From assembly GCA_016283095.1 (NCBI GenBank), contig JAEEMG010000058.1, forward strand, positions 40,252 to 104,251: a stretch of 64,000 bases of DNA. The letters are read 5' to 3'. This document shows, piece after piece, positions 2,819 to 51,623 of the stretch. Origin of the DNA: Paludibacteraceae bacterium. Its GTDB lineage: Bacteria; Bacteroidota; Bacteroidia; Bacteroidales; Paludibacteraceae. Below the pieces are notes generated by a model that saw only the letters and a program-made list of their open reading frames with translations, made no database searches and was not told where the DNA came from. Positions within the stretch are counted from its first letter, which is position 1. Every line of letters begins with the position of its first letter. A program made the translations under genes and the position numbers.

Positions 2819-3289
2819 TTATTCTTTTATAAGTTTGACGGTTTGTGAGTCTGTTTTTAGAATGTAGACTCCTTTTGCTTGTGGCAATTTAATCTCTGCC
2901 ACACCTTCAGCTGACGCATTCACTTTTTGAATTGCAGATCCTGCTACTGAATAAAGAATCACTGAAGATTTCGGTTGCAATCCCTCTGCTTTGACGTGGC
3001 TGTTATCGGAATATGTGAAGCGGACTTCCTTGCTTCCCAAAACAGCGACGTTGCTTAAAGAACCGTCAGTGAAATGATACGAGTCGACTTTGCTGAGCTC
3101 GAATGCTGTCCTTGCTGATCCACTGACAATAAAACTGTCTGCCTGATAAGTGATTTTGGGAGATTCCGACAGAAGGTACGAAAACTTTGTTCCGTCGGTC
3201 AAATCAACTGTGACGTGCGTCGTCTCAGCGAATGCCGGAGCTGACGCCATTGTCATCAGGACTCCGATTGAACGTAATAGATTTTTCAT
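2819..3289 (-). CDS. Small secreted protein with T9SS-type C-terminal sorting domain
   Basis: Signal peptide MKNLLRSIGVLMTMASAPAFAE; small beta-domain; C-term SSVILYSVAGSAIQKVNASAEGVAEIKLPQAKGVYILKTDSQTVKLIKE. 4-nt gap to serpin 1. Confidence 0.75.
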   Translation of the reverse strand: MKNLLRSIGVLMTMASAPAFAETTHVTVDLTDGTKFSYLLSESPKITYQADSFIVSGSARTAFELSKVDSYHFTDGSLSNVAVLGSKEVRFTYSDNSHVKAEGLQPKSSVILYSVAGSAIQKVNASAEGVAEIKLPQAKGVYILKTDSQTVKLIKE

Positions 3290-3347
3290 GTTGTAAATTT
3301 TATGTTTATGTTTAATTTTAAGTGTAATGCTCGCAAGAAAATAAAAT

Positions 3348-3379
3348 CAGTAGAGACGAGATTATTCCCGTCGCTACTG
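3348..3379 (-). terminator. Terminator / REP-like palindrome downstream of serpin 2
   Basis: CAGTAGAGACGAGATTATTCCCGTCGCTACTG imperfect palindrome, T-rich tract on minus strand. Confidence 0.65.
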
Positions 3380-3391
3380 AAAAAATACTCT

Positions 3392-4954
3392 TTAATTTTT
3401 TAATGTCGGATCGTTGATCAATCCGATGAAAAGTACTTCGTGTGTCTTAGGATTGTTGATTGTCACTATGAACGGACGGTTGACATCAACGTTTACAACC
3501 TCATCCATATATGCACTTCCAGTTAACTCTACTAATGTCACAGCCGCACCTTTCGCACCGTCTTCATCAATTTCCAAATGTGCCAATTGTTTTACATTAG
3601 TCACCTCCGCATTTTCTACAATGTTGTTGAATTTAGCGATGAATGTCTTTTCTAATCCGATTTTCTTCAACATTTCATTTAACTTAATCTTTGAGTCTAT
3701 GTTGAATTTCGGCAATGAAAGTCTTGGGCTGTAAAGAATGTAGAAGGATCCCGCATCTTCGGTTTTGTGTTTTATGTTATCAAAATCGATTTCTGCAAGA
3801 ACTGCTTCTGGAGAAACACCTTCTGCTGGTAGAACCACATTCATCTGGAATCCCTCGTAAAATGGCAAAGTGACGAGTTGGTAGTTTTCTCCTTCTGCAT
3901 AATTGCCAACAAAGTAATGATTCATCTTCTCTACTTGCTTCACTTCTCCTGTCGATGTGGTGAATTTGCCAATCTCTGTTCTCATTGTGTCAAATTTCTC
4001 TTCCCATTCCGACTGGAAACTTAGGGCATTGGCTAATACAAGAATTAATGATGGATCTTTGTCAATGCCTAATTTTTTTATCATTTCATTTGTAGACTTT
4101 TCTGCCCAATTGTCCATTTTTGTATATGTGGAGTCTTCATTGAAGTCTACGTTGTTGGCTGCTGCTTTGTAGTATCCCTCAATGTTTTGCAAGAAGTTTT
4201 TTCCAATAGGAAGCCCTTTTTGGATGAAAGCCGCATTTGTTATTCCAATATTGACTTTTTGAGGATTTACCATTTTAAGATTAGTCAAACGCTTTGAATA
4301 CATGTCGTTCAACTCGTCGAGTGGTATGTTTTCTTTTCCTAAAGCGGTTGTGATTTCTGCGTATGCTTCGTCATCATCGGCTCCATTTGCCAACATGGCT
4401 AAGGCAAACTGCAAACTGGTAGGCGAGAAGATCAAGTTTTTGTCTTTGAAGTCTTTATCTTTAGAAATGTTGGTAAAGAGTTTTGTCGCGAATTTGTTTG
4501 CGGAACTTTGTGTCTCAATCTCTTTGTCAGAGAAGTTTATTTTTTTCTCATTTCTCTTTTCTTTGACACAATCGCTATAACTTTCTTGTATTTTGAATAT
4601 CTCCCAATCGTCAGCCCCAGACTCTTTTAATTCACGAATTCGGGCGGAGTCGTATTCACAACCTTCTACCATAGTAGATACAATGTCCCAGTTGGCGACA
4701 TCGCTATCCATGCGTGTGATTTTTTCGTCGAATGTCACTTCGGCTCCATCCAAAGGATAAAGAGAGTAGGAACTGTCTGTACGGGAAACTTTGATGAAAA
4801 CTTCGTCACCTTTTTTCACATGGCTCACACGATCTGTTTTCTCTACTTTCACATCATACTCCTTGCCGTTTGGCAGGTTGATGTGCATATATTGCGTCGC
4901 TGACATTGAGCATGCCGCAATAATTCCGATTGCTGATAGTAAATGTTTTTTCAT
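3392..4954 (-). CDS. Serpin paralog, putative lipoprotein
   Basis: Same architecture as the 1237-2814 protein; hinge DEDGAKGAAVTL; NRPFIVTINNPKTHEVLFIGLINDP; N-terminal IIAAC lipobox. Confidence 0.93.
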   Translation of the reverse strand: MKKHLLSAIGIIAACSMSATQYMHINLPNGKEYDVKVEKTDRVSHVKKGDEVFIKVSRTDSSYSLYPLDGAEVTFDEKITRMDSDVANWDIVSTMVEGCEYDSARIRELKESGADDWEIFKIQESYSDCVKEKRNEKKINFSDKEIETQSSANKFATKLFTNISKDKDFKDKNLIFSPTSLQFALAMLANGADDDEAYAEITTALGKENIPLDELNDMYSKRLTNLKMVNPQKVNIGITNAAFIQKGLPIGKNFLQNIEGYYKAAANNVDFNEDSTYTKMDNWAEKSTNEMIKKLGIDKDPSLILVLANALSFQSEWEEKFDTMRTEIGKFTTSTGEVKQVEKMNHYFVGNYAEGENYQLVTLPFYEGFQMNVVLPAEGVSPEAVLAEIDFDNIKHKTEDAGSFYILYSPRLSLPKFNIDSKIKLNEMLKKIGLEKTFIAKFNNIVENAEVTNVKQLAHLEIDEDGAKGAAVTLVELTGSAYMDEVVNVDVNRPFIVTINNPKTHEVLFIGLINDPTLKN

Positions 4955-47760: not shown

Positions 47761-49665
47761 TTAGAAGACAGGTATATCTGCGACATTGTCTTTGTCCTGC
47801 ACGTTGTTGAAATCGCCGACTGGATCATTGCCATCCAATCCATAACCAACCTGCATGAATTGTGAGAATTCTCTCTCTTTGTCAGTCGCGATCATCTTTG
47901 CAAGAGTGTTTTCTGCTGTTTCGCCTTCGCTGATGATATCAGCAATTGCGTCTGCAGATATGGCAGTTTCAATGTTGCCGTTGAATCTTTGTTCGAGTAT
48001 AAATTTCAATCCCCACATTTTTTTCTCTTCCTCGTATCCGTTTTTCAGATCAGAAAGGAAGTTTGTGATGACGCTACTGTAATCTTTGCTGTTTGCTACT
48101 TTGTCGATGAATCCAAACAATTTTTTTCTGCTGCAGTAAGCTCCGGCAATATCAGCCCATTTGTCTATCTCATAGCTGGATGCTTTTTCATACAGAGCTT
48201 TCAAATTTGTTGTGTCGCACGATTTCAGCAAACGAACTGCGAATGTGGAAAGAAACATTGCGTATAGGTCAACACCTTCGTCGACTGCCACTGAATGCAT
48301 TTTAGCTCGTCCGTATTTATGATAGTTCACACCTGCACGACGTTGGTGGTGTTGTTTTTCTGTAAGAAATTCGAAACCTTCTGCCACTTCAGCCACAATA
48401 AACGGACTCATTACGTCGAAGTTGATGATGTCGCTGCTATCATCAATAGTCTTTCTCTTGTCACGTTTTTTCCATTTGTTGATGTCGCGCATTGTTCCGC
48501 ACGACTTCATGCTTGAACCTGGATAAATCCAAGTTTCGGAATTCTGTTCTATCAGATATGAGAATGGCAATTTACGAGTGTCAAGATTGCCTCCGTGTTT
48601 TCCTTTAACTAGAGTGAACACACCTGTCACAGCAGGCCACAACACGTAAGAGCCACTCGCTGTTTTGCTTCCACGCTGAAGAACTCCTTCATGGTTTGGT
48701 CCAAGACGGTAATAGTGGTTGCTTTGGTTTGTCGCACTACCTGCGTTCATGAAGCTGAACATTGCGGCAATAAGTAAAGTTGATTTATGATGCGACACTG
48801 TGAATGGACCGGCAAACAGTGAACACGACTCTCCGTGGAATGCCTGACAGTTTGCACTGAAGAATGTGTCTGTCGCAGAGAATCCTAGACCCACCTCTGT
48901 GTTCTGGCCGACGAATGTGTTGCGGATAATCGCTCCGTCCATCACTTTTGCTCCGTTGCAGAGAATGAAGTTGTTGGCCAATACATCTGTTGTGATTGAA
49001 GAAGGGTCAGAAGCAGACGATTTAACAATACCGTTTTCAAGAGAAGCACAATCTTTAACTGTCGCATTCTCTCCAATCCATACGTTTGCGATCTTCTTGT
49101 TTCCAATTACAACCGCATCCTTTCCGATATATCCTCGTGGAGCATCTGCAGGACGAGAGGTATATTCTTTTGATTTTTCATCAAGATAGGTGCAGATTCT
49201 TTCAGTAAACACTTTATAGTCGCGGAACATTACAGCCAAATATGCGAGTTGAGCAGTCAATGCTGGAGACAATGGAATTGATCGTCCTCCGTTCTCGTTG
49301 AGCACTGCTATTTTTGTATCTGTACCGAATGCAGTAGATCCGTTGCAGAAAATTTCACAGTTGTCGACCAATATCGCACCGTCGGCAATCTCATAATTGG
49401 AAATATATCTGCTTATTCCATCGATCACAACGTCGTTGCCGACAACACAATTATGCAGGCGGGCATTGTTGATTCCTCTTTGGAATGGAACGCTGTTGAT
49501 TTCAGTGACTCCTGAATATGTTCCTAGTTGGCATTTGCCAGAGAATGAAGTTTTGCTGACTGAATTTGCATTGAATCCGTCTGCAACAGATATGTTTTTC
49601 CAATCGTCCGCATAGCAACCATTTGCTTGCAAAGACTCGATTTCTTTCGATGTTAATTGTCGCAT
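47761..49665 (-). CDS. DUF4954 family protein (left-handed beta-helix, acyl/nucleotidyltransferase-like)
   Basis: MRQLTSKEIESLQANGCYADDWKNISVADGF; hexapeptide-like region VVIGNKKIANVWIGENATVKDCASLENG. Confidence 0.85.
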   Translation of the reverse strand: MRQLTSKEIESLQANGCYADDWKNISVADGFNANSVSKTSFSGKCQLGTYSGVTEINSVPFQRGINNARLHNCVVGNDVVIDGISRYISNYEIADGAILVDNCEIFCNGSTAFGTDTKIAVLNENGGRSIPLSPALTAQLAYLAVMFRDYKVFTERICTYLDEKSKEYTSRPADAPRGYIGKDAVVIGNKKIANVWIGENATVKDCASLENGIVKSSASDPSSITTDVLANNFILCNGAKVMDGAIIRNTFVGQNTEVGLGFSATDTFFSANCQAFHGESCSLFAGPFTVSHHKSTLLIAAMFSFMNAGSATNQSNHYYRLGPNHEGVLQRGSKTASGSYVLWPAVTGVFTLVKGKHGGNLDTRKLPFSYLIEQNSETWIYPGSSMKSCGTMRDINKWKKRDKRKTIDDSSDIINFDVMSPFIVAEVAEGFEFLTEKQHHQRRAGVNYHKYGRAKMHSVAVDEGVDLYAMFLSTFAVRLLKSCDTTNLKALYEKASSYEIDKWADIAGAYCSRKKLFGFIDKVANSKDYSSVITNFLSDLKNGYEEEKKMWGLKFILEQRFNGNIETAISADAIADIISEGETAENTLAKMIATDKEREFSQFMQVGYGLDGNDPVGDFNNVQDKDNVADIPVF

Positions 49666-49796: not shown

Positions 49797-49919
49797 GACG
49801 GATATGCTTCGAATGCAGACGGATTTAACAAGCCTAAAAGGAAAAGTCGACGGATTATATGTGAAAAGTGACGGATTATTTTGAAAATAAGAAAAAAAGA
49901 AATAGATTTGTGACGGATT
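49797..49919 (+). promoter_or_regulatory. Array of five direct GACGGAT sites, putative operators
   Basis: GACGGATA 49797; GACGGATT 49818, 49849, 49870, 49912; spacing 21, 31, 21, 42 bp. Confidence 0.75.
49880..49910 (+). promoter_or_regulatory. -33/-7 promoter of the AlbA_2 regulator gene
   Basis: TTTG (49880-49883), 19 bp, TAGATTTG (49903-49910); fits the Bacteroidota TTTG/TAnnTTTG consensus. Confidence 0.75.
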
Positions 49920-49934
49920 TATAGCAGAAAGATT

Positions 49935-51623
49935 ATGGGAACAGAACAAACAAAAGTAAAATTCGACTGGAACAAACTTTCGGATTATAGAGAAAACCTA
50001 CATATAGAAGCTAAGAAAGCGCTTGGCGGAATTCCAGGAAGCATTTGGGAAACATATTCTTCGTTTGCAAATACAGACGGAGGTGTCATATTGTTAGGGG
50101 TGGAAGAAGCTGAAGACCTTTCGCTACGTGCGGTTGGCCTAAAAGATATATATAAAATTGAAAAAGACTTTTGGAACCAAATCAACAACAAACAGGTGGT
50201 GAGTGTAAATCTTCTGACAGAAAGAATGGTACATGCTGAATGTGTTGATGGAAAAGATATACTTGTGATTGAAGTTCCTCGTGCAGAACGTATGCTCAAG
50301 CCTGTTTACAAAGGATTAAACCCAAAATCTGGAACTTATAGAAGAAACGGTGAGGGTGATTACCTATGTTCCGTGGAGGAAATGGCAGCGATGTATAGAG
50401 ACGCTTCGTCATCTACAGTCGATATGAAGGTGCTTACACAGATGGATTTTTCTGTGTTTTGTAAAGAGACCGTACGCTCTTATCGTCAGATGTTCAAGAC
50501 AACACATCCATCCCATATTTGGTGTGATCTTGATGATGAGTTGTTTCTGCGTCGATTGGGAGCTATAGGGCTTGGCGAAGACGGTGCATTGCATCCGACA
50601 GCAGCTGGATTGCTAATGTTTGGCTATGAATATGAGATACTGCGTGAGTTTCCTCAATATTTTCTTGACTATCAAGAGAACAGGCAAATGGCGACCACAC
50701 GTTGGACAGACCGTATCGTCTCTTCGTCGGGAGATTGGAGTGGCAACGTCTTTGATTTTATATATAGAGTGGTGCCTCGTCTTTGTGATTCGCTGAAAGT
50801 GCCGTTTGTGATGAAGGGAATGCAACGAGTGGATGATACTCCATTACACAAACTTTTACGTGAGGCGATTACCAATACTTGTGTACATGCAGATTTCTAT
50901 GGCAGACGTGGATTGGTAATCCAAAAAATGCAGGATAAATTTGTTTTTGCAAACCCTGGTGGCCTTCGTTTGTCTTGCTCGGAAGCGATAGGAGGGGGAG
51001 TGTCAGATCCTCGTAATGGAGTGATGCTAAAAATGTTGTCGATGATTGAGTATGGAGAACGTGCAGGAAGTGGATTGAACGGAATTTTTCATGTATGGCG
51101 TCATGTGTATAAATGTTCGCCTATATTGGAGGAAATGGGAGGAGTCGACCGTACAATCTTGACTCTCGACACTCATGGTCAACAACCAGATATAGATGCT
51201 ATGATCAAACTGTACGGTAGTGACGGATTAAATGTCATGGGCGACGGATTTGCAGATAAGTGCGACGGATTTGTCGCAGAATCCGACGGCACAGATAAAA
51301 AATCCGACGGATCGCAATCGACTGCCGTTAAAAAAGAATATGATTGGTCGATGGTGTTAAATGAGCCTGTTTTTCATTATCGCACAAGTGTTCCCCAAAA
51401 TAAAGTCAGTGATTTTCCTGAGTTACCTCCAAAGGAACGCACTCTGATGAATGTTTTGGTGAAATTGGGAGCGTCGCAAGTTTCTGTGATTGCATCTGAA
51501 ATGGGCCTGGGAATTTCACAAACAAAATGTTACTTGCAGAAATTGATATCCAAGGGATATGTTTGTGCTCAAGGCTCAACTCGTGACCGTACTTATATGT
51601 ATGTTAAGGATGTCCGTTACTGA
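49935..51623 (+). CDS. Schlafen/AlbA_2 putative DNA-binding domain protein with HATPase_c_4-like region and C-terminal winged HTH
   Basis: ENLHIEAKKALGGIPGSIWETYSSFANTDGGVILLGVEE; LLREAITNTCVHADFYGRRGLVIQKMQDKFVFANPGGL; VSVIASEMGLGISQTKCYLQKLISKGYV. Confidence 0.9.
   Translation: MGTEQTKVKFDWNKLSDYRENLHIEAKKALGGIPGSIWETYSSFANTDGGVILLGVEEAEDLSLRAVGLKDIYKIEKDFWNQINNKQVVSVNLLTERMVHAECVDGKDILVIEVPRAERMLKPVYKGLNPKSGTYRRNGEGDYLCSVEEMAAMYRDASSSTVDMKVLTQMDFSVFCKETVRSYRQMFKTTHPSHIWCDLDDELFLRRLGAIGLGEDGALHPTAAGLLMFGYEYEILREFPQYFLDYQENRQMATTRWTDRIVSSSGDWSGNVFDFIYRVVPRLCDSLKVPFVMKGMQRVDDTPLHKLLREAITNTCVHADFYGRRGLVIQKMQDKFVFANPGGLRLSCSEAIGGGVSDPRNGVMLKMLSMIEYGERAGSGLNGIFHVWRHVYKCSPILEEMGGVDRTILTLDTHGQQPDIDAMIKLYGSDGLNVMGDGFADKCDGFVAESDGTDKKSDGSQSTAVKKEYDWSMVLNEPVFHYRTSVPQNKVSDFPELPPKERTLMNVLVKLGASQVSVIASEMGLGISQTKCYLQKLISKGYVCAQGSTRDRTYMYVKDVRY
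51222..51326 (+). repeat. Intragenic 21-bp (7-codon) tandem array with the same GACGG core as the promoter
   Basis: GACGG at 51222, 51243, 51264, 51285, 51306; encodes DGLNVMG DGFADKC DGFVAES DGTDKKS DGSQSTA. Confidence 0.9.

Follow-up and report, generated by a model that had tools for sequence, protein, structure and literature searches.

The Schlafen-type gene of the window (the whole stretch of 64,000 nucleotides of Paludibacteraceae DNA that was analysed) carries two arrays of the short sequence GACGGAT, one upstream of the gene and one inside it. Judged from sequence, these arrays are probably bound, as private sites, by the protein that the gene encodes, through its winged helix-turn-helix (wHTH) domain, so that the gene would be autoregulated; repression is the most likely consequence of such binding. 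The findings in relatives point to a mode of self-regulation that has not been recognised before. No prior description of such arrays was found in the open-access literature, although an earlier one may exist.

The GACGGAT Arrays of the Window

The window contains 17 copies of GACGGAT where 4.85 would be expected, and at least 17 copies were reached in 0 of 100 shuffles. Nine of the 17 copies fall into two clusters. The upstream cluster, located by motif search of the window and kept in congeners, consists of five sites on the forward strand, at 49797..49803 (followed by A) and at 49818..49824, 49849..49855, 49870..49876 and 49912..49918 (each followed by T); 16 nt separate the end of the last site from the ATG. 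The steps are 21, 31, 21 and 42 bp, and none of the five sites deviates from a 10.5-bp grid by more than about 0.5 bp, which confirms the five phased sites of uniform orientation given in the preliminary description. Five same-strand copies per 123 bp are expected at less than 1e-8 per window, by arithmetic from the shuffle rate. The sites are probably located in the 5′ leader and not in the core promoter, directly after a conserved AT-rich block. A divergent DUF4954/DUF6819 gene (47761-49665, reverse strand) lies on the other side of this intergenic region; the upstream array might control it as well.

The motif listing of the preliminary description was right for the upstream sites and overlooked the second array, inside the gene. 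This array, also found by motif search on the forward strand, has sites at 51222..51228, 51243..51249, 51264..51270 and 51306..51312, and a degenerate site, GACGGCA, is seen in the sequence at 51285..51291 (forward strand) on the same grid. When it is counted, every step is exactly 21 bp. The array corresponds to codons 430-459 and therefore lies wholly within a disordered linker. The isolated copy reported on the complementary strand is also present, its coordinate being 49575-49581 and not 49574.

Both arrays are confined to this gene. Pairs of GACGGAT 3-40 bp apart in the 3.69-Mb genome form a four-step chain upstream of the gene and a three-step chain inside it, and no other array of at least three sites was found across the 3.69 Mb, the seven other matches being isolated pairs. 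The same privacy is seen elsewhere. One paralogue in the window genome contains four in-gene copies of AGATGTCC, 12 bp apart, an array found nowhere else in that genome, and another paralogue has an array containing CACAGAAAACGT. In two other genomes, GCCCCAAT arrays are confined to their gene and TACTACCC arrays to theirs, and the downstream array GCGATTCG was found solely beside its own gene.

The Encoded Protein

The gene (49935..51623, forward strand) encodes a protein of 562 aa that combines a Schlafen AlbA_2 domain, a GHKL ATPase (HATPase_c_4) and a wHTH, as assigned with Pfam, AlphaFold and Foldseek; we take it to be of the COG2865 type. The AlbA_2 domain (residues 20-144; 49992..50366, forward strand) matches PF04326 over the cut-off with an E-value of 3e-12, and profile matches to 2kyy and Schlafen structures were also obtained. 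Its residues E20, E25, K27 and E58 are invariant across 47 relatives, in a pattern of the Schlafen kind that may correspond to the acidic active site of a Schlafen-type RNase. The HATPase_c_4/GHKL segment (residues 329-391; 50919..51107, forward strand; PF13749) scores 25.3 bits in Pfam, slightly below the cut-off of 26, and 29.1 bits in the genome search, which exceeds the cut-off; its fold matches 3lmm.

The AlphaFold model is confident for most of residues 9-429 and for residues 499-556. Residues 430-492 have pLDDT below 50 and form the disordered linker that holds the in-gene array (51222..51410, forward strand). The C-terminal segment (residues 499-556; 51429..51602, forward strand; pLDDT about 86) is a winged helix by fold and by sequence match, with wHTH-like Pfam matches around residues 507-555. 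Together with Foldseek and covariation, these data make it the proposed reader of the array. PADLOC and NCBIfam yielded partial matches only (pAgo, CasR).

Conservation among Congeners

The locus of the window gene was compared with those of four relatives (L001-L005, protein identity 83-98%). Motif and phasing persist in the upstream regions of the four congeners, with 26/35 site positions invariant against 25/87 inter-site positions (p = 5e-6), and both the upstream and the in-gene arrays are kept. In one congener, a shortening of about 32 bp, or three turns, removed two upstream sites, and the remaining sites are still in phase. Of the Asp-Gly pairs in the linker, 20/27 are written as GACGGAT, compared with 6/123 in the window's other ORFs, and the following residue varies between F, L and S despite the constant GACGGAT. 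The preliminary description had proposed a candidate operator array for a multimeric DNA-binding protein, with the gene's own product as a plausible binder. At the level of sequence this reading is supported by the two checks that could be computed, namely the persistence of motif and phasing in orthologues and the lack of other arrays of three or more sites in the genome.

In another congener, G068, the locus lies between the same two neighbours (DUF4954 and WG-repeat genes, 84-85% DNA identity). Its AlbA_2/GHKL part is deleted; the deletion ends in or adjoining the two arrays, and four GACGGAT sites and the wHTH region are kept. The deletion seems to have been mediated by the two arrays, acting as direct repeats. 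This locus (L130, contig G068:C33, reverse strand 3183-3592) retains an array together with a wHTH reading frame of 88 aa. Congener G085 has neither gene nor array.

Arrays across the Family

Eighty relatives were fetched, many of them from metagenome-assembled loci. An array was defined by a fixed rule as at least three exact 8-mers per 160 nt, in the linker or at most 300 nt from the gene. By this rule, 69/74 relatives have an array, compared with 3/78 neighbouring control ORFs. The best repeated linker 8-mer also beats all 100 codon shuffles in 62/75 relatives, and the sequence of the motif varies gene by gene. The same rule detects an array in 37/58 PF13749 genes of a phylum-wide draw, which is not strictly random because it includes members from the window genome and mostly better-scoring matches, and which comes with almost no control ORFs. 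Of these genes, 22 have the array in the linker and 16 have it in the 300 nt past the stop codon; none has both. Arrays past the stop codon are equally compatible with regulation of the neighbouring gene and of the gene itself.

In members carried by plasmids or satellite phages of Lactobacillus, Staphylococcus and Streptococcus, the arrays are located upstream instead and are of the 11- or 22-bp type. An upstream array alongside an in-gene one is found in few chromosomal relatives outside the window's genus. On a Lactobacillus iners plasmid (L124, 1942-2489), a Schlafen-type gene is preceded by 11-bp TAATCGTGAGT repeats that extend over about 550 bp; they are clustered with a higher-order period of 87 bp, and further copies occur at 4193-4213. 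In locus L195, an 11-bp unit (GAAGCGATTCG or GAAGTGATTCG) is repeated twelve times immediately past the end of a PF13749 gene. The downstream arrays of L229 and L232 contain the motif in both orientations (CGACAT/ATGTCG and TTGGACA/TGTCCAA), and elsewhere the arrays are pure direct repeats.

The gene neighbourhoods are varied. Schlafen-type genes occur in or beside type I restriction-modification genes (hsdM/hsdS/hsdR), as annotated in L123 and as read from translated flanks in L189, L191 and L198. On a Parabacteroides distasonis plasmid (L121), two Schlafen-type genes are interleaved with glycosyltransferase genes.

Reading Frames and Helical Phase

More than one reading frame is used in 18 of the set-A arrays with at least four copies. 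Units of the GCGATAAA type, spaced 13/14 nt apart, encode SGDK and AAIK in alternation, and the arrays of L141 and L144 span three frames. Since many arrays cross frames in this way, selection acts on the DNA. Array spacings also lie near multiples of 10.5 bp, both in frame (R 0.64, 0/5000 null draws) and off frame (R 0.44, p = 4e-4), with set-A relatives that are not independent of each other; a non-redundant set of spacings, and in the comparison below a Mantel test, lessen this dependence and do not remove it. Clostridial arrays of 13/14 bp are an exception and fall off the 10.5-bp grid.

Joint Change of Array and Winged Helix

Motif similarity follows wHTH identity when the N-terminus is controlled (partial Mantel r 0.51, compared with a maximum of 0.19 in 300 permutations), and it does not follow N-terminal identity when the wHTH is controlled (partial r 0.015). 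Among pairs whose N-termini are at least 90% identical, motif 6-mers are shared by 98% if the winged helices are at least 70% identical and by 19% if these are less than 45% identical. Even an N-terminal identity of 97-99% is compatible with a different wHTH and a different array.

A replacement of this kind can be followed at one chromosomal locus (L006, L007, L009 and L011), whose flanks are mostly about 92-94% identical. Nucleotides 1350-1765 of the L006 gene contain a remnant of the old array (GATACCC type), then a new array, TGTCGATAAA, and then a new wHTH. Exact units of the old array number 6/16 in L006 against 10/21, 14/21 and 11/17, which suggests, too weakly to count as evidence here, that the orphaned array decays after the wHTH has been swapped. 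A Fibrobacteraceae gene, 55% identical N-terminally, shares its CTACCCAGAAA array with Muribaculaceae genes, and the recognition helix (DGIKYH) is nearly identical between them.

Covariation among the phylum-wide genes is positive but weak, with 6-mers shared in some pairs of similar wHTH (mean 0.12 vs 0.01 background); L215, L225 and L226, which have similar winged helices, have no array 6-mers in common. A candidate pair with opposite motif orientation, L016/L021, was dropped because the motif is ambiguous in L021.

Proposed Mechanism and Alternative Explanations

Recognition of its own arrays by the window protein is better supported because of the second array inside the gene, the private arrays across the family, and the covariation of motif and wHTH. 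In the proposed mechanism, the C-terminal winged helix would recognise the 7-8 bp motif, and the 10.5-bp phasing would align several protein molecules along one face of the DNA. Protein bound to the upstream array, in the 5′ leader/promoter region, would block initiation, and protein bound to the in-gene array would hold up RNA polymerase. Release might follow once the AlbA_2/GHKL part senses a signal. Array and wHTH, being adjacent, would be inherited and exchanged as a single cassette, and the control of each member would thereby stay private.

The arrays might instead be sites of nucleation or tethering, at which the Schlafen/GHKL protein is parked or polymerised on its own gene, as initiators or centromere proteins are on iterons. 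This would keep an RNase effector switched off, or would label the element for partition, replication or the licensing of defence. A parallel is offered by pSK41, whose RepA_N plasmid gene has in-gene repeats beside a DNA-binding domain; the wHTH of the window protein resembles, among other wHTHs, the centromere-binding protein AspA; family members are present on plasmids and satellite phages; and the Schlafen-kinase-wHTH architecture is described near BREX loci as an RNase-type defence module. The window gene, however, is chromosomal and flanked by a DUF4954 gene and a WG-repeat gene, and no replication or partition partner was seen adjoining it, so that this explanation is considered unlikely. 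Autoregulation at the RNA level, with the protein binding repeats in the leader and coding region of its own mRNA, seems more doubtful still. Both window arrays are probably part of the transcript and read in the sense direction; AlbA_2 domains are nucleic-acid binders, and some relatives carry the annotation RNA-binding domain-containing protein. Yet the spacing follows the DNA helix and the motif covaries with the winged helix; the arrays on the L. iners plasmid reach out to about 550 bp from the gene on its upstream side, and the L229 and L232 downstream arrays present the motif in both orientations.

Tandem duplications without function, tolerated by a disordered linker and sometimes spilling into the flanks, would account for some perfect short tandems (L062, L231) and for the different copy numbers of close relatives. 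Such minisatellites are very improbable as a general explanation, because spacers diverge while the core is kept, two or three reading frames are used, the window gene has two separate arrays of one motif, the array is found in the linker, upstream or downstream according to the member, and motif and wHTH covary. A repeat selected in the protein, where the linker would encode a short motif (DGF, TQK, SDK) and the DNA repeat would be secondary, deserves almost no credence. Many in-gene arrays are in frame (21 or 12 bp) and do give regular peptide repeats, but the non-coding upstream and downstream arrays, the multi-frame arrays and the strict codon choice are left unexplained. The peptide-repeat and pure minisatellite readings were therefore rejected, given the reading frames, the arrays in non-coding DNA and the covariation.

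For private autoregulation as a property of the family, the balance tips slightly towards a broad claim. The Schlafen/GHKL/wHTH genes would form a widespread family with private addresses, in which each gene has its own multi-copy binding array, within the coding sequence or next to it, and array and winged helix are swapped as a cassette between otherwise near-identical genes. Paralogues and incoming copies would then not cross-regulate, according to the logic of plasmid iterons and incompatibility, here chromosomal and probably linked to defence. For most members of this large and poorly understood family of regulators or defence proteins, the likely recognition sequence of the wHTH can be read directly from the gene, which makes the function of the protein testable. 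The family also supplies many natural wHTH-motif pairs for studies of recognition, as well as likely DNA-binding arrays that are embedded in coding DNA in several reading frames.

Comparison with Known Systems

C proteins and WYL-type BrxR are likewise DNA-binding regulators which are encoded beside defence genes and control their own expression. They bind one or two palindromic operators in the promoter, and we know of no private multi-copy direct-repeat array inside their genes.

In overall structure, the best whole-chain fold match of the window protein is DIP2311 of Corynebacterium diphtheriae (PDB 3lmm; Foldseek E 1e-19), which also matches in part of its sequence; the two are compared as structures only. 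Schlafen RNase-minimal histidine kinase-wHTH proteins found with BREX have been described as an RNase-type defence component (PMC12839542, 2026), and their domain order is identical to that of the window protein. The text compared mentions no operator or repeat array for them, and the immediate neighbours of the window gene are not BREX genes.

The closest parallel in gene organisation is given by RepA_N initiators. In the pSK41-type rep gene, the binding and origin repeats lie within the DNA that encodes a dispensable linker, next to the DNA-binding domain, and in the chimeric pPR9 rep the DNA-binding domain and the origin have been replaced together, giving compatibility (PMC5703833). The window gene likewise has in-gene repeats beside its DNA-binding domain, with which they covary in relatives. 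It differs in encoding a Schlafen AlbA_2/GHKL/wHTH protein on a chromosome without sign of a replicon, and in that the array of relatives may also be upstream or downstream of the gene. RepA_N is absent from the Pfam matches of the window protein, in which AlbA_2 and HATPase_c_4 were matched. The Schlafen/GHKL/wHTH family has this architecture in common with pSK41-type rep and lacks both the RepA_N domain and a replicon; it would therefore work like an in-gene iteron system and is not a member of that group.
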